A DNA stretch of 64,000 bases from Halobacteroides halobius DSM 5150. GTDB taxonomy: Bacteria; Bacillota; Halanaerobiia; Halobacteroidales; Halobacteroidaceae. The translations under genes and the position numbers were made by a program. Below are positions 38,564 to 45,451 of the stretch, one piece after another (position 1 is the stretch's first letter; every line of letters begins with the position of its first letter). The stretch covers positions 2,170,001-2,234,000 of the forward strand of contig NC_019978.1 of the NCBI RefSeq assembly GCF_000328625.1. Direction: 5' to 3'. Below the pieces are notes generated by a model. That model made no database searches, was not told where the DNA came from, and was given only the letters and a program-made list of their open reading frames with translations.

Positions 38564-41500
38564 ATGAAAATTAATTATATCAAAAAAAGAGATGATAGAA
38601 AAGTTCCATTTGAAAAGGAAAAAATTGAAACAGCAATTCTAAAAGCAATGAAAGCTGTAGATAGAGATAATAAACAAATTGCTCAAGAAGTAACTGAAGA
38701 AGTTTTATCTTATCTTAAAATAATCGCCAAAAGTAACAGCATCCCTACTGTAGAACAAATTCAAGACTTAGTAGAAAAAAGCTTGATTGAAAAAGGGGAA
38801 GCTGAAATAGCCAAATCATATATTCTTTATCGAGAACAACACGCTAGATTAAGACATACAGAAGAATTATTTAGTGATGCTATTAATGCAATTGATAGTT
38901 ATTTAGATCGTAGTGATTGGAAAGTTAATGAAAATAGTAACATGGGATATTCCCTACAAGGATTAAATAATCATATCTCCTCTGAAGTAACTGCTCAATA
39001 CTGGTTACAAGAAATTTATCCTCAAGAAATTAGAACAGAACATAAATCTGGTTCCTTACATATTCATGATTTAGGTAACTTAGCTGTTTATTGTTGTGGT
39101 TGGAATCTTAAAGATTTATTATTAAATGGTTTTGGAGGAGTTTCAACTAAAGTAGAAAGTAATCCTCCTAAACACTTTAGAACTGCTCTGTTACAGACTG
39201 TTAACTTCTTTTATACTTTACAAGGAGAAGCAGCAGGTGCACAAGCTCTATCTAACTTTGATACCTACTTAGCTCCTTTTATCCACTATGATGATTTAAG
39301 TTATGAAGAAGTTAAACAAGGCATGCAAGAATTTATTTATAATTTAAATGTACCTACTAGAGTTGGATTTCAAACTCCATTTACAAATATTACTATGGAT
39401 TTAAATGTACCACAGATGATGAAAGATGAACCAGTAATCATTGGTGGCGAATATCAAGATGAAACTTATGGTGAATTCGAAGTAGAGTTAGATATGTTCA
39501 ACAAAGCCTTTGCTGAAGTGATGCTAGAAGGGGATAAAAAAGGGAGAGTCTTCTCATTCCCAATTCCTACTTATAATATAACGGATGATTTTAATTGGGA
39601 TAATGAAGTGCTAGAGCCTGTTTGGGAAATGACAGCCAAGTATGGCATCCCGTATTTCTGTTTAGATGAAGATACTAATATAATTACAAATAATGGTATT
39701 AAGAAAGTTAAAGATTTAAATATAGATACAGATAAAGTTTTAGGAGAAGACAATAAATTTTATGAAGTTACTAATTACTTTAAAAATGAACATTCTGAAT
39801 ATATTAAGATAGAAACAAAAAATAATAATACAATAAAATCTTCTAAAAATCACAAATTTCCAACTAATAATGGTCTTAAAAAAGCTATTGACCTATCATT
39901 AAATGATAAGTTGTATGAACACAAAACAGAATTAGTATTTGAAAATGGTTTTAAGTTATCATATAAAAACCAATCATACTTTGATATTTATGATAAAAAT
40001 GATAATAAAATAACATTTGAGAATATAAACAAAGAAAATATACAAGAATTTTATTATTTAAAACCTACAGTTAGAGAAATGAAATCATTATCAGATTTTA
40101 ATTATCCAAAAAATAGATATCAAACAACCTTAAAAGAAATTGATATTCCTAAAGAATTAGATACGGATATTTTTGAAATAATAGGAGAATTATTAGGAGA
40201 TGGCTATTTACCTAAAAATAAAAATTCTATAAGATTAACTAGTAATGATGATGAAATTATAAATTTCTTTTCTGAAACTATAAAATATAAATTTGGACTT
40301 GATACAAAAATTTGTCAAGCTGGTAATAGCGACACATGCTTAGAGGCAAATGTTAATTCAGCAATGTTAAAATCATATTTACAACATCTTGGCTTAAAAT
40401 TTGGTATAGGTAGTGAAAAAGAAATACCTTCTATTGTATATCATAGAAGTGATGCTGAAATATCAGCTTTATTAAGAGGACTATTTGATACTGATGGGTC
40501 TATTACTATAAATAATAATGGAAATCCTAATATATCTTTAGTATTAAAAAATCACAAATTATTACAACAAGTATTAGAGTTATTAATGTTTTTAGGAATT
40601 GTAGCTTCTTACAAAGATACAGATGATAAATATGGAAAAATTAATATACATGGCTCTAAAAATATTAATTTATTCAAAGAAAAAATAGGATTTAGAATAA
40701 ATAGAAAAAATAATAGATTACAAAAGAATAAGAAAAAACAAACAGTTCTAGGTGATAAAATAATTACTAAAGAACAATCATTTGAAATGTTTGGAAATGA
40801 TCACAGACAATATTATGATAAGGAAATGTTTAGAATAAAAGAAAATGGTAACGGTATCTACCTATTCACTGCTGAATTTAATAAATATAAAAATAAAGTA
40901 GACATATCAAATTTAAAACTTATTAACAATACTCTTAAATCTGTAGATATAACTGTAAATAGTAATAGTCATTTATTTACTTTATCTAATGGAATTATAA
41001 CTCATAATTCTAATATGGTAAATTCTGATGTAAATCCCGAAGATGTAAGAAGTATGTGTTGCAGATTGCGGCTATCAAACAAAGAACTGCGTAAACGTGG
41101 TGGTGCTCTATTTGGCTCTAATCCTATGACCGGATCGATTGGGGTAGTAACAATTAATATGCCACGAATTGGTTACTTAGCAGAAGATAAAGAAGAATTT
41201 ATTAAGCGAGTTTATGAACTAATGGATATAGCGCAAGAAAGTCTAGAAATTAAACGTAAAGTACTAGAAAGATTAACTGACAATGGTCTGTATCCTTATA
41301 GTAAATTTTATCTACGAGGAATTAAAGAGCGCTTTGATGAATACTGGAAAAATCACTTTAATACAATTGGACTTAATGGGATGAATGAAGCTCTACTTAA
41401 CTTTATGGGCCAAGATATAGCTAGTGAAGAAGGTAGACAATTTGCCATAGAAGTCATGGAAGCAATGCGAGAAAGACTAGTCGATTACCAAGAAGAGACA

Positions 41501-43162
41501 GGTAATATCTATAACTTAGAAGCTACTCCAGCCGAAGGAACTTCTTATCGCTTTGCTAACTTAGATAAGCAAAAGTTTGGTGCTGATATTATCTGTGCTA
41601 ATCAAGAACGAGTTAGAAATGAGGATGCTGATCCATACTATACTAACTCTACTCAGCTTCCTGTTGGTCATACAACTGATATCTTCGAGGCTTTCCAATT
41701 ACAGGATCCATTACAGAAACGTTATAATGGGGGCTGTATTGAAAAAGGAAATAAAGTTTTAACTGATAAAGGTTCAATGAAAATTGAAAATATCGTTAAT
41801 AACTATGAAGATCTAAAACCAATTAAGGCATTAAGCTATAACCCTGATAAAAAAGAAGCGGAATGGGATCTAATTACAGATGCAATGTCAATTGATGTGA
41901 CACATAATGATAAAATTAGAGTTAAAGGGGAAAAAGGATTAGATATAACTACTAGTGATTGGCATCCATTCTTTGTTTTAGAAAAAATTCCTGTTGATAA
42001 AAAATGTCCTATTTGTGATAAGGAAGTAGCCGGAGTAAGAGGTTTTGCAGGACATATGAAATATTCATCAAAATGCAGAGAAAAATACAATAAGTTGAAT
42101 AAATATCAGGTAGTAGAAAAAAGAGCTGATGAATTAAAAGAAGGGGATTATATCTTACAAAATAGTGATAATTTATATCCTGAGCAAGAAACTAACTTAG
42201 ACCAAGATTTAATGTGGTTAATTGGTTACTTTATCGGTGATGGATGCATCAGTCAGTTTAAAGATAATCGAGGCGGAAATAATTTAACCAAATATAAACT
42301 TAGATTATTTGATGCTAATAAACAAAATCTTGTTAAAGCTAAAAAAATTATTAATGAAAACTTTAATGCTGATATTAATGTAATCCAGAATGATAAACGA
42401 AGTAATAAATTGTATCATCTAATAACTTCTAAACAAGATGTAATAGACTTCTTCTTTAATTATGGTTTTTCAGCTGGAGAAAAAACTTATGATGTCAAAA
42501 TAACTTCTGAAGTTAAATCAGAACTTAATGCTCAAAATATTTATAGTTTATTATCAGGTTTATTAGATAGCGATGGTCATATTAATAAACGATATGGTAA
42601 TGGTGAGTATTATACAGTTTCCGAGAATCTAGCAAATGATCTAGTAGAAATCTGTAGTCAAGCCGGAATCATGGTAGCCCAAGAAGATAAACCAACTAAC
42701 AGAGAAAATGAAGTAGATGGTTTTAGAATTACAATTCCTGCTTATCAAATGACAATGTTAAAAGATAAATTAACAATTGTGAATGATAAAAAATATATCA
42801 AAGATGATTTATCAAACAGAAAATTAAGACAGTTACCTGTAGTAAGAGTAACTGCAACAACTAAAGTAGATATTGAAGACAATCAATTTTATGATTTAAC
42901 TACTAAAAATAATCATAATTATTTAGCTGGAAACAACACTATGGTATTTATTCATAATACTGTACTCCACGGCTTCTTAGGAGAAAGAATGCCATCAGTA
43001 GCCAGTACTAAAAAGTTAGTTAAAAGATTAGCTGATAACTTTGAACTACCTTATTACTCTATCACACCTACTTTCAGTATTTGTCCAAAACATGGCTATT
43101 TAGCTGGAGAACATGAATACTGCCCTAAGTGTGATGCTGAAATAGGTTATCAGGAAGAATAA
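38564..43162 (+). CDS. nrdD: Anaerobic ribonucleotide reductase large chain with two inteins, lacking the glycyl-radical loop
   Basis: A 1532-residue precursor of class III ribonucleotide reductase. Residues 1-90 are an ATP-cone. Inteins occupy 366-815 and 1058-1465, so the spliced protein has about 674 residues. Extein motifs include AVYCCGWNLKDLL, DVRSMCCRLRL (active-site Cys pair) and, after joining, YNGG-TVLHGFLGE. The chain ends with a zinc-type CPKHGYLAGEHEYCPKCD region where other NrdD proteins continue into RVxGY, the glycyl-radical loop. That loop is absent here and is found in a separate small gene at 43893. The enzyme makes deoxynucleotides without oxygen and is activated by NrdG. 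Confidence 0.95.
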   Translation: MKINYIKKRDDRKVPFEKEKIETAILKAMKAVDRDNKQIAQEVTEEVLSYLKIIAKSNSIPTVEQIQDLVEKSLIEKGEAEIAKSYILYREQHARLRHTEELFSDAINAIDSYLDRSDWKVNENSNMGYSLQGLNNHISSEVTAQYWLQEIYPQEIRTEHKSGSLHIHDLGNLAVYCCGWNLKDLLLNGFGGVSTKVESNPPKHFRTALLQTVNFFYTLQGEAAGAQALSNFDTYLAPFIHYDDLSYEEVKQGMQEFIYNLNVPTRVGFQTPFTNITMDLNVPQMMKDEPVIIGGEYQDETYGEFEVELDMFNKAFAEVMLEGDKKGRVFSFPIPTYNITDDFNWDNEVLEPVWEMTAKYGIPYFCLDEDTNIITNNGIKKVKDLNIDTDKVLGEDNKFYEVTNYFKNEHSEYIKIETKNNNTIKSSKNHKFPTNNGLKKAIDLSLNDKLYEHKTELVFENGFKLSYKNQSYFDIYDKNDNKITFENINKENIQEFYYLKPTVREMKSLSDFNYPKNRYQTTLKEIDIPKELDTDIFEIIGELLGDGYLPKNKNSIRLTSNDDEIINFFSETIKYKFGLDTKICQAGNSDTCLEANVNSAMLKSYLQHLGLKFGIGSEKEIPSIVYHRSDAEISALLRGLFDTDGSITINNNGNPNISLVLKNHKLLQQVLELLMFLGIVASYKDTDDKYGKINIHGSKNINLFKEKIGFRINRKNNRLQKNKKKQTVLGDKIITKEQSFEMFGNDHRQYYDKEMFRIKENGNGIYLFTAEFNKYKNKVDISNLKLINNTLKSVDITVNSNSHLFTLSNGIITHNSNMVNSDVNPEDVRSMCCRLRLSNKELRKRGGALFGSNPMTGSIGVVTINMPRIGYLAEDKEEFIKRVYELMDIAQESLEIKRKVLERLTDNGLYPYSKFYLRGIKERFDEYWKNHFNTIGLNGMNEALLNFMGQDIASEEGRQFAIEVMEAMRERLVDYQEETGNIYNLEATPAEGTSYRFANLDKQKFGADIICANQERVRNEDADPYYTNSTQLPVGHTTDIFEAFQLQDPLQKRYNGGCIEKGNKVLTDKGSMKIENIVNNYEDLKPIKALSYNPDKKEAEWDLITDAMSIDVTHNDKIRVKGEKGLDITTSDWHPFFVLEKIPVDKKCPICDKEVAGVRGFAGHMKYSSKCREKYNKLNKYQVVEKRADELKEGDYILQNSDNLYPEQETNLDQDLMWLIGYFIGDGCISQFKDNRGGNNLTKYKLRLFDANKQNLVKAKKIINENFNADINVIQNDKRSNKLYHLITSKQDVIDFFFNYGFSAGEKTYDVKITSEVKSELNAQNIYSLLSGLLDSDGHINKRYGNGEYYTVSENLANDLVEICSQAGIMVAQEDKPTNRENEVDGFRITIPAYQMTMLKDKLTIVNDKKYIKDDLSNRKLRQLPVVRVTATTKVDIEDNQFYDLTTKNNHNYLAGNNTMVFIHNTVLHGFLGERMPSVASTKKLVKRLADNFELPYYSITPTFSICPKHGYLAGEHEYCPKCDAEIGYQEE
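39659..41008 (+). mobile_element. Intein 1 in NrdD, LAGLIDADG homing endonuclease type
   Basis: 450 residues, beginning with Cys (CLDEDTNIITN) and ending GIITHN before Ser+1 (SNMVNSD). Block B is at SSKNHKFPT. Two dodecapeptide motifs are IIGELLGDGY and LLRGLFDTDGS, with their Asp residues intact, so the endonuclease may be active. It interrupts GIPYF-SNMVNSDV next to the conserved Cys pair. The intein is more AT-rich than the extein. Confidence 0.93.
41735..42958 (+). mobile_element. Intein 2 in NrdD, LAGLIDADG type with zinc-finger-like insert
   Basis: 408 residues, beginning with Cys (CIEKGNKVLTD) and ending MVFIHN before Thr+1 (TVLHGFLGE). Block B is at TTSDWHPFF. Dodecapeptide motifs are LIGYFIGDGC and LLSGLLDSDGH. 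Between the splicing domain and the endonuclease a CPICDKEV...GHMKYSSKC segment has the CxxC-x12-H-x6-C spacing of a zinc finger. The insertion site is the conserved catalytic YNGG-T region of NrdD. Confidence 0.93.
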
Positions 43163-43174
43163 AGGACTGATAAT

Positions 43175-43870
43175 ATGAAAGTAGCAGGTCTACAAAAGAC
43201 AACTTTAATTGATTATCCAGAAAAAATTGCTAGTATTATCTTTACCCAAGGCTGTAATATGAAGTGTCCTTATTGCCATAATCCTAGTTTAATTCCTTCT
43301 GCTAAAGATGAGCAAGACTTTATACCCTTAGATCAATTATGGCACTTTATAGACCATAGAAAAGAGTTAATTGATGGGATTGTCATTACAGGGGGAGAAC
43401 CAACCTTACAACAAGGATTAATCGATTTTATAAAAAAGATTAACAGTAATGATTTAAAAGTTAAGTTAGATACCAATGGGAGTAATCCTAACTTGCTTGC
43501 TAAATTAATTAACCAAGAGTTACTTGATTATATTGCTATGGATATTAAAGCTCCTTTTGCTAAAAATGAACCAATTATAGGTAAATCAGGATTTGAAAAA
43601 TCTATATCTAAAAGCATCGAATTAATAAAAAAATCAACTATAAACTATGAATTCCGTACTACTGTTGTTCCTACACTTCATGATGCTAAAACTATTGATA
43701 AAATTGGAAAGTTAATCAATGGTAGTAAACGCCATTATATCCAGAATTTTAGACCTAAAAATACTCTAGATTCTGAATTGCTTAAAATAAAAGAGTTTCC
43801 TCCTGCAAAACTAAAGGAGTTTAAAAGTATACTATCTAAATATGTTGAAAGAGTATTTATTAGAAATTAA
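43175..43870 (+). CDS. nrdG: Anaerobic ribonucleotide reductase activating protein
   Basis: A 231-residue radical SAM enzyme. The cluster motif is CNMKCPYC near residues 27-34 (CxxxCxxC), with the SAM-binding ITGGEPTLQQ downstream. It generates the glycyl radical of the reductase, here presumably on the separate peptide encoded 22 bases downstream. It is 12 bases after nrdD. The length and motif fit the NrdG-like PflA-related type found in Firmicutes. Confidence 0.93.
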   Translation: MKVAGLQKTTLIDYPEKIASIIFTQGCNMKCPYCHNPSLIPSAKDEQDFIPLDQLWHFIDHRKELIDGIVITGGEPTLQQGLIDFIKKINSNDLKVKLDTNGSNPNLLAKLINQELLDYIAMDIKAPFAKNEPIIGKSGFEKSISKSIELIKKSTINYEFRTTVVPTLHDAKTIDKIGKLINGSKRHYIQNFRPKNTLDSELLKIKEFPPAKLKEFKSILSKYVERVFIRN

Positions 43871-43892
43871 TCTTTGAAAGGAGGTGTTTTGA

Positions 43893-44045
43893 GTGAGTAG
43901 TAATAATGAAGAAAGAACTAGATGCCAGACATACTCCCGCGTCGTCGGGTTCATTACTCCTACAGAGAACTGGAATAAAGGCAAGTTAGAAGAATTTGAG
44001 GATAGAGTTACTTATGACCAGGCATTAGAAACTGCATCCGAATAA
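43893..44045 (+). CDS. Stand-alone glycyl-radical domain of NrdD
   Basis: A 50-residue protein starting with GTG 43893, eight bases after AAAGGAGG. It reads RCQTYSRVVGFITPTENWNK and then GKLEEFEDRVTYD, which matches the extreme C-terminus of NrdD from other bacteria; G19 in RVVGF is the expected radical site. NrdD encoded upstream stops just before this segment. Therefore the radical loop is a separate subunit that must dock into NrdD, as GrcA/YfiD does for damaged pyruvate formate-lyase. Gene order nrdD-nrdG-this gene supports joint expression. Confidence 0.85.
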   Translation: MSSNNEERTRCQTYSRVVGFITPTENWNKGKLEEFEDRVTYDQALETASE

Positions 44046-44078: not shown

Positions 44079-44106
44079 AAAGGAGGGGCCAACCTCCCTC
44101 CTTTTT
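44079..44106 (+). terminator. Terminator of the nrdDG operon
   Basis: AAGGAGG-GGCCAACCT-CCCTCCTT followed by TTTT. It lies 34 bases after the small glycyl-radical gene and faces the convergent thioredoxin-like gene. Confidence 0.75.
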
Positions 44107-44110
44107 AAAC

Positions 44111-44341
44111 TTACTTAAGTAATTTCTTAATCTCATCCTTACTAGGTACTCTACCCTTAATCTTAACCTTACCATCAATAGCTAATCCCGGAGTACTCAT
44201 TACCCCAGCCTTAGCAATTTCAGCCATGTCCTCAACCTTCTCTACCTTAGCATCAATTCCTAACTCCTCCACAGCCTCTTTTGCATTATCAGCTAAACTA
44301 ACACAATTTTTGCATCCTGGCCCATAAACAGTAATTTTCAT
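44111..44341 (-). CDS. Small thioredoxin-like protein (redox-active disulfide protein type)
   Basis: About 76 residues. AAGGAGAG selects ATG 44341 (MKITVYGPGCKNC) over one 45 bases upstream. It has the thioredoxin/glutaredoxin fold of the family with GPGCKNCVSLAD and the cis-Pro loop STPGLAID. Such proteins are often next to the permease family encoded at 44483 and may deliver or accept electrons or metalloid for it. The 140 bases between the two contain only a TTAACAATTGACAATT-type repeat. Confidence 0.85.
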   Translation of the reverse strand: MKITVYGPGCKNCVSLADNAKEAVEELGIDAKVEKVEDMAEIAKAGVMSTPGLAIDGKVKIKGRVPSKDEIKKLLK

Positions 44342-44482
44342 GATTAACACTCTCCTTTTTACTAATTTACAATTTATAATTAACAATTGACAATTAGAAC
44401 CCCTAAAAACCTTTATGAATTAAATGATTATAGGTTTTTAATCTTTAATTGTAACTTGTTCATTGGCCATTGTCAATTGCTT

Positions 44483-45451
44483 TTAAAGCGCTATATTAAA
44501 GTATAGACTTACAAAATCAAATAAATAACCAACACCTATAATAGCTGTTCCCACCACAGCAATAAAAATACCAATCAACTTAGGCTTAATCACCTTTCTT
44601 AAAATAACCATCTCAGGAAAAGACAATGCTACAGTAGCCATCATAAAACTTAAAGCAGTTCCTAGACCTACTCCTTTATTAATTAAAGCTTGAGCAATAG
44701 GAATAGTTCCTACCGCATTTGAATAAAGCGGGATACCTAATAAAACTGCAACAATAACCGAAAGCGGATTCCCTTCTCCTGCATATTTAGCTAACAAACT
44801 TGCTGGTGCATAACCATGAATTAAAGCTCCAATTGCAATTCCAATTATTACATACTTCCAGACACGACCAACAATCTCCTTTACTTCTCCCTTAGCATAC
44901 TTAATTCTATCCTGCCAAGTCTTCTCCTCTACTTCATCTTCATCCATCTGAATTTGGTAAACATATTCTTCAACCTCATCCTCTAAGCCTAGACTACCAA
45001 TTATTATCCCACCTACGATACCAACTACTAAACCACTAATTAAATATAAGGTTCCAATCTTCCAGCCAAATAATGAATATAACATAACTAGTGCTACTTC
45101 GTTTACAATAGGTGACGTAATTAAAAAAGAAAAAGTAATGCCTAATGGAACACCTGATTCAATAAAACCAATAAAAATTGGCACTGAAGAACAAGAACAA
45201 AACGGTGTTACTATTCCTAATAATGCAGCTAAAGTATTACCAACATACTTTCTTCTGTGACTTAACAATTTTTTAGTCTTCTCAGGAGGAAAGAAACTCC
45301 GAATAATTGAAATAAAGAAGATCATTACAGTTAATAAAAGTAAAATCTTAATAGTATCATAAACAAAGAAATGAACTGACTCTCCCCATCGTGTTACTTT
45401 ACTAAGACCAAACCAGTTATAAACTACTAAATCAGCAAACCAATCAATCAT
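44483..45451 (-). CDS. Permease of the SoxW/ArsP-like family (PF03773)
   Basis: A 322-residue membrane protein with eight or nine helices. It has TPFCSCSSVPIFIGF (the Cys-rich motif of the family), ITSPIVNEVAL and VLLGIPLYSNAVGTIPIAQAL in two repeated halves. A cytoplasmic acidic loop covers about residues 150-190. Some relatives export organoarsenicals; the substrate here is unknown, but the arsenic genes just upstream make metalloid transport plausible. It starts 7 bases after the arsR remnant, so both were probably one operon. Confidence 0.85.
   Translation of the reverse strand: MIDWFADLVVYNWFGLSKVTRWGESVHFFVYDTIKILLLLTVMIFFISIIRSFFPPEKTKKLLSHRRKYVGNTLAALLGIVTPFCSCSSVPIFIGFIESGVPLGITFSFLITSPIVNEVALVMLYSLFGWKIGTLYLISGLVVGIVGGIIIGSLGLEDEVEEYVYQIQMDEDEVEEKTWQDRIKYAKGEVKEIVGRVWKYVIIGIAIGALIHGYAPASLLAKYAGEGNPLSVIVAVLLGIPLYSNAVGTIPIAQALINKGVGLGTALSFMMATVALSFPEMVILRKVIKPKLIGIFIAVVGTAIIGVGYLFDFVSLYFNIAL

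Follow-up and report, generated by a model that had tools for sequence, protein, structure and literature searches.

In a stretch of 64,000 nucleotides from Halobacteroides halobius DSM 5150 (contig NC_019978.1, positions 2,170,001 to 2,234,000; the window in the following) a class III anaerobic ribonucleotide reductase is encoded in two parts. The nrdD gene for the large chain lacks the glycyl-radical loop; the loop is the product of a separate 50-codon gene behind nrdG, the gene of the activating enzyme. In published descriptions a class III reductase has one catalytic chain and an activase, and a two-chain form departs from this. The best explanation, to which we give a probability of about 0.87, is a class III reductase made obligately of two chains, of which the small one bears the glycyl radical. 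In the proposed mechanism the large chain, after excision of two inteins, would contribute the ATP cone and catalytic barrel together with the finger-loop cysteines and zinc ribbon, and the 50-residue chain would supply the loop RVVG19F and the C-terminal tail. The small chain would dock onto the large one such that the loop enters the barrel beside the finger-loop cysteines. NrdG with S-adenosylmethionine (SAM) would abstract a hydrogen from Gly19, and the Gly19 radical would start every catalytic cycle via a cysteine.

The split was delineated with the Pfam profile NRDD (PF13597, 562 positions). NrdD with its inteins removed has 674 residues and ends with CPKHGYLAGEHEYCPKCDAEIGYQEE just beyond the zinc ribbon. 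It matched NRDD with E = 4.5e-177 (590.6 bits), the ATP cone with E = 5.2e-21 and the family model NF006126 with 982.7 bits; the catalytic barrel is present according to PF13597 and NF006126. The match covers profile positions 1-529, in three pieces parted by the two inteins, and a loop of the type RVxGY/F was not found within the NrdD chain. The product of the small open reading frame (ORF), MSSNNEERTRCQTYSRVVGFITPTENWNKGKLEEFEDRVTYDQALETASE, also exceeded the gathering score of NRDD (33.4 bits, cut-off 26.2; E = 2.6e-8); its residues 8-41 correspond to positions 532-562, and the loop is followed by the C-terminal tail WNKGKLEEFEDR. The two chains thus complement each other on a single profile (1-529 and 532-562), which bore out a preliminary description of this DNA that had placed the missing loop on the small gene. 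In NrdD from Thermotoga maritima, the Zn site of which matches the ribbon found here, the glycyl loop follows in the same chain (PMC4493059). The double-cysteine finger-loop motif MCC, of a class described previously (PMC9669993), was invariant in alignments of 15 and of 36 NrdDs. Compared with solved structures, the small sequence alone yielded only a weak match, again to a class III enzyme (8p23, E = 0.028).

The coordinates of the locus are compiled in Table 1. nrdG is inserted between nrdD and the small gene, which starts 22 bases past its end. The hairpin and T run downstream would be consistent with an operon nrdD-nrdG-small gene. Both NrdD inteins contain homing-endonuclease domains and had escaped the preliminary description; nrdD genes are also interrupted in several Halanaerobium relatives.

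Table 1. Features of the split reductase locus (positions in the window).
Feature	Position	Strand	Remarks
nrdD	38564..43162	+	class III reductase large chain: ATP cone, ten-stranded barrel, zinc ribbon; two inteins; no glycyl-radical loop
Intein 1 in NrdD, residues 366-815	39659..41008	+	junctions CLDEDTNII...HN/SNMVNSDV; intein and LAGLIDADG models
Finger-loop motif MCC (double cysteine)	41057..41062	+	expected thiyl-radical site; RSMCCRLRL in translation
Intein 2 in NrdD, residues 1058-1465	41735..42958	+	junctions GG/CIEKGNKV...HN/TVLHGF; intein models
Zinc ribbon CPKHGYLAGEHEYCPKC	43082..43132	+	at the NrdD end, stop 9 residues later; predicted metal binding
nrdG	43175..43870	+	radical-SAM activating enzyme, NrdG2 type; TIGR02495 1.2e-63, 213.9 bits (cut-off 131.15); Radical_SAM PF04055
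Shine-Dalgarno-like AAGGAGGTG	43878..43886	+	ahead of the GTG start of the small gene; read from the sequence
Small gene	43893..44045	+	free-standing class III reductase glycyl-radical domain, 50 residues, GTG start
Gly19 codon in RVVGF	43947..43949	+	predicted radical glycine; invariant in alignment A1; model searches align it with T4 Gly580 to about 1 residue
Terminator-like hairpin and T run	44082..44105	+	directly 3' of the small gene; consensus scan only

The genome is complete (a single contig of 2,649,255 bases) and was searched with PF13597 for other reductases and radical loops. Elsewhere in the complete genome there was no second match to the radical-loop end of the profile and no fused full-length NrdD with a loop of its own, the counter-example which the preliminary description had named. 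The two other matches were a YjjI glycyl radical enzyme (502 residues) and a class II reductase, NrdJ (755 residues). The nrdD locus is the sole class III reductase of the genome and holds its sole radical loop of the class III type. Accordingly, the earlier statement that the radical domain exists as the only copy holds for class III, yet NrdD is not the only ribonucleotide reductase of this organism.

These data bear on two other roles for the small protein. It might be only a repair part, as GrcA/YfiD is for pyruvate formate-lyase (PFL), with another intact loop doing the normal work. Repair-type free-standing radical domains are indeed known for PFL (PMC8683613), and some host genomes and many phages have additional orphan copies of the domain. 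However, NrdD is encoded without a loop here and across the class Halanaerobiia, so that there is no intact enzyme to be repaired, and NRDD was the only Pfam family that the small protein matched at E values up to 1, with no PFL-type Gly_radical domain. We therefore regard a mere repair function as very unlikely. A role of the small protein in a different glycyl radical enzyme such as YjjI, which is encoded at about 809 kb of the genome, is hardly credible: YjjI has a loop of its own (VRITGYL), whereas the small gene is located with nrdD and nrdG, matches the NRDD profile and tracks loop-less NrdDs.

Next, we consider whether the small gene is real and maintained. In an alignment of 14 small proteins (A1) 13 columns were invariant, and the invariant residues include Y14, R16, V18, G19, W27, N28, G30 and K31. 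Cys11 was dismissed as a feature specific to the split because fused relatives in the subfamily often carry it as well. The median ratio of non-synonymous to synonymous substitution rates (dN/dS) was 0.045 (40 usable pairs between relatives). Differences between relatives accumulated at third codon positions (4027) three to five times more often than at first (1332) and second positions (781). The small gene is genuine and under strong constraint. Its presence in 44 of 60 relatives, its conserved neighbours, the invariant columns and the third-position excess put it far beyond chance.

The 60 relatives, which included the outgroups G059 and G060, had been sampled as genomes. Wherever the small protein was matched the ORF was intact with two exceptions, the outgroup G059, in which it is fused, and G011, which retains a remnant. 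The small ORF adjoined nrdG and a loop-less nrdD in nearly all loci fetched. Across the class, matches to the NrdD core stop at positions 528-538 of PF13597, and separate ORFs, mostly of 43-78 residues, cover positions 530-562. Fused NrdD chains were restricted to G002, G004 and G006 within the class, which are in the same family, and to both outgroups. We rejected that these three are re-fusions because they are of a very different NrdD type and are placed on a long branch with outgroup G060; by sequence they look like replacements. In a phylum sample of 398 genomes the domain was located in long reading frames outside the class, with two short exceptions, G340 and G210, the latter at a contig end. 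Hence both chains exist, complement each other exactly, co-occur, are under constraint and are not accompanied by a fused copy. The proposal of a two-chain reductase was supported by the near-perfect co-occurrence in the class, by purifying selection and by a structural model which puts the loop at the known radical site (see below); the location of the radical on the small chain is still deduced.

The same data were used to weigh whether the class III system is decaying, with an NrdD deprived of its loop, a small gene that is a mere fragment and deoxynucleotides provided by the class II NrdJ. Besides the presence of NrdJ, this is suggested by members of the order which have no NrdD. One of these is G011, a complete genome in which NrdD is absent and the small gene is reduced to a stretch of 23 residues without a full frame; this indicates that the two were lost together. 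Decay, however, does not agree with a median dN/dS as low as that given above, with the retention of both genes and their order over the class and several phyla, or with intact finger-loop and zinc motifs and a ribosome-binding site. We consider it quite improbable.

Might the two chains be joined during or after translation, by protein trans-splicing, frameshifting or read-through, to yield one ordinary mature chain? Protein splicing does occur at this locus, as the NrdD inteins imply, and in a few archaea nrdD and the small gene share 4 bases or have a single in-frame stop between them. Yet in H. halobius the intervening nrdG excludes frameshifting and read-through, and a search of the small ORF with intein models revealed no intein motif. 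Across loci, the gap between nrdD and the small gene was anything from a 4-base overlap to 339 bases and occurred in each of the three phases; this variation in length and phase argues against a shared frameshift or read-through mechanism. Thus, a joining of the chains is most improbable. A missed frameshift, named in the preliminary description as a refuting case, or a sequencing error is excluded because nrdG intervenes and dozens of assemblies independently show the same split. In a metagenome-assembled genome (MAG) of Diapherotrites, the radical domain continues the frame of NrdD after one TAG (L112:2334-2336), and a fused NrdD is also present in that genome.

For a structural view we used the NrdD and small protein of G017, which are encoded adjacently and in frame. 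The three stops between them were read as serine, which resulted in a single chain of 759 residues. One alignment (A2) was discarded because the small sequences were scattered across the large chain, and another (A3) gave a moderate AlphaFold model with a predicted local distance difference test (pLDDT) of 71.8. Alignment A4, with 36 sequences including fused homologues, resulted in a model with pLDDT 81 and a predicted template-modelling score of 0.77; the blocks of the small domain, residues 701-740, were at 74-79. Its best structural matches were class III reductases: T4 NrdD (1h7b, Z 32.6, root-mean-square deviation 2.7 over 485 residues), T. maritima (4u3e, Z 32.5) and P. copri (8p2s, Z 32.5). 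Model residue 724 fell on T4 residue 587; provided that the stretch is ungapped, this puts model Gly717 on T4 Gly580. Other alignment rows for T4, T. maritima and P. copri agreed with this placement to within a few residues. The model shows that the loop can occupy the position of the radical glycine of known NrdDs.

Several points weigh against an obligate two-chain enzyme. The model is a continuous single chain built with fused homologues in the alignment and as such is no test of the binding of separate chains. The small chain has 50 residues and no obvious anchoring domain of its own. With a class II NrdJ in the genome, NrdD need not be essential. Finally, physical assembly, activation by NrdG, a radical on Gly19 and catalysis are all inferred.

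The wider distribution was examined by a scan of 84,980 species genomes of which the best 80 loci were kept (taxon names are from the records, and many are metagenome bins). Among these 80 loci the domain was a stand-alone ORF in 74 and was fused in 6, all archaeal. In bacteria, a stand-alone domain beside a loop-less NrdD was observed in Halanaerobiia, Synergistota, several Patescibacteria, an Armatimonadota MAG and an Alphaproteobacteria MAG; in archaea in Diapherotrites, Micrarchaeota, Pace-, Woese- and Nanoarchaeota and Thermoplasmatota. The order nrdD-nrdG-small gene prevails in halanaerobial and synergistote loci, and nrdD-small gene-nrdG was found in G014 and G017 and in loci from Patescibacteria, DPANN and Thermoplasmatota. 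Of 299 Pseudomonadota sampled 34 had an NrdD, about 10 of them split (an approximate count), and the split arrangement is present on plasmids of Azospira, Aquabacterium, Bradyrhizobium, Paracoccus and Sulfuricurvum. A quickly made tree of 94 NrdD cores required 7 changes between split and fused, a number which is approximate and carries no direction; at least five of them were forced by well-supported branches. The NrdD of the window belongs to a supported clade (97) of 28 split members, i.e. Halanaerobiia, Synergistota and two viral contigs, with Halanaerobacter jeridensis and Orenia metallireducens as its nearest relatives. Judged by these sequence comparisons, the split class III reductase is a recurrent architecture in bacteria, archaea and phages and not an oddity of one genome.

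How does this enzyme relate to known systems? It shares the ATP cone, barrel, MCC finger loop, zinc ribbon, loop sequence and adjacent nrdG with the single-chain, double-cysteine NrdDs of the T. maritima type (PMC4493059, PMC9669993). The known structures of single-chain NrdDs hold the loop and tail at the C-terminus of NrdD, whereas here these are a separate gene product. GrcA/YfiD and Y06I of phage T4 resemble the small protein as free-standing glycyl-radical domains expected to enter the barrel of a larger enzyme (PMC8683613). They are, however, repair copies of the PFL type beside a full-length PFL, and the domain here is of the NrdD type and the only copy. The reductase NrdJa/NrdJb of Pseudomonas aeruginosa is likewise reported to be made of two polypeptides (PMC4520616), but it is of class II and has no glycyl radical. 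Fragmented phage nrdDs such as that of Aeromonas phage phiAS4 also extend over more than one reading frame (PMC3653736). Those breaks are isolated and mostly linked to introns, inteins or homing endonucleases; in contrast, the same cut between zinc ribbon and loop was kept here over whole lineages. Further counterparts are plasmid ORFs of 58-63 residues from Azospira, Aquabacterium, Bradyrhizobium and Sulfuricurvum. They display the same split in the order large chain, small ORF, NrdG; they carry RVMGY and precede nrdG, whereas our small gene has RVVGF and follows it. Where annotated at NCBI, the large chain on such plasmids is a 'ribonucleoside triphosphate reductase' and the 58-63-residue ORF is 'nrdD, anaerobic ribonucleoside-triphosphate reductase', the name of the whole enzyme. 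This shows that databases have already met these small ORFs. The expectation that gene callers easily miss such a gene is thus only partly correct, since several plasmid copies were called and named. The names are misleading, and surveys which count NrdD may overlook that the large chain is unable to work alone. None of the papers found in the open literature, reviews and phylogenies of ribonucleotide reductases included, reports an NrdD radical domain on a chain of its own; prior notice is possible.

Among free-standing glycyl-radical domains only the spare parts of PFL have been validated so far (PMC8683613). If a two-chain reductase is correct, the ribonucleotide reductases gain such a domain. 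A glycyl radical could then be installed, exchanged and measured in a protein of 50 residues, and loop movement, recognition by NrdG, half-site activity and repair of oxygen damage would be directly testable. By analogy to YfiD (PMC8683613), a plausible benefit of the split would be the cheap replacement of a chain that oxygen has cut at its glycine.

The domain was also encountered apart from nrdD. In the best 80 loci from viral contigs of IMG/VR (L117-L196) it was a stand-alone ORF in 74. An NrdD core was absent from 47 of 50 viral records searched whole, many of which are fragments of viruses. Some viral versions have extra zinc-ribbon-like cysteines. The archaeal virus ANMV-1 encodes a protein of 144 residues with the radical domain at its end (AJP62049.1, L199:4686-5120), annotated as a whole anaerobic ribonucleoside triphosphate reductase. 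The PHROG families phrog_4132, phrog_29963 and phrog_30176, all of unknown function, matched the radical domain weakly and may be free-standing NrdD-type glycyl-radical proteins. In cellular genomes, G030 has a second copy in a prophage between tail-collar and holin-amidase genes (L219:4305-4454), and at locus L041 an extra copy is near a terminase-like gene. In Patescibacteria (L058, L060, L067) extra copies do not adjoin nrdD and have ordinary genes as neighbours, namely mraW, a SpoIID-domain gene and one for a flavodoxin-fold reductase. The second copy in G044 (L220:3105-3641) is joined to an additional domain of some 130 residues, which by its sequence looks DprA/SLOG-like, and adjoins the gene of a DnaB-type helicase.

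Judging from the orphan copies in phages, viruses may steer the anaerobic supply of deoxynucleotides with a very small gene. One might speculate that NrdD-type domains are interchangeable radical cartridges. Split enzymes would swap the oxygen-labile chain and keep the 75-kDa catalytic chain, and phages or prophages that have the domain but no NrdD would provide the host reductase with a fresh radical chain during infection, as T4 Y06I can for PFL. We put this forward tentatively, as a possibility for which the odds are somewhat unfavorable.

On the minus strand downstream of the small gene a thioredoxin-like small protein with a CxxC motif (44114-44386) and a permease-like membrane protein (44483-45451) are encoded, a pair reminiscent of a redox-active disulfide protein with the permease that usually accompanies it.
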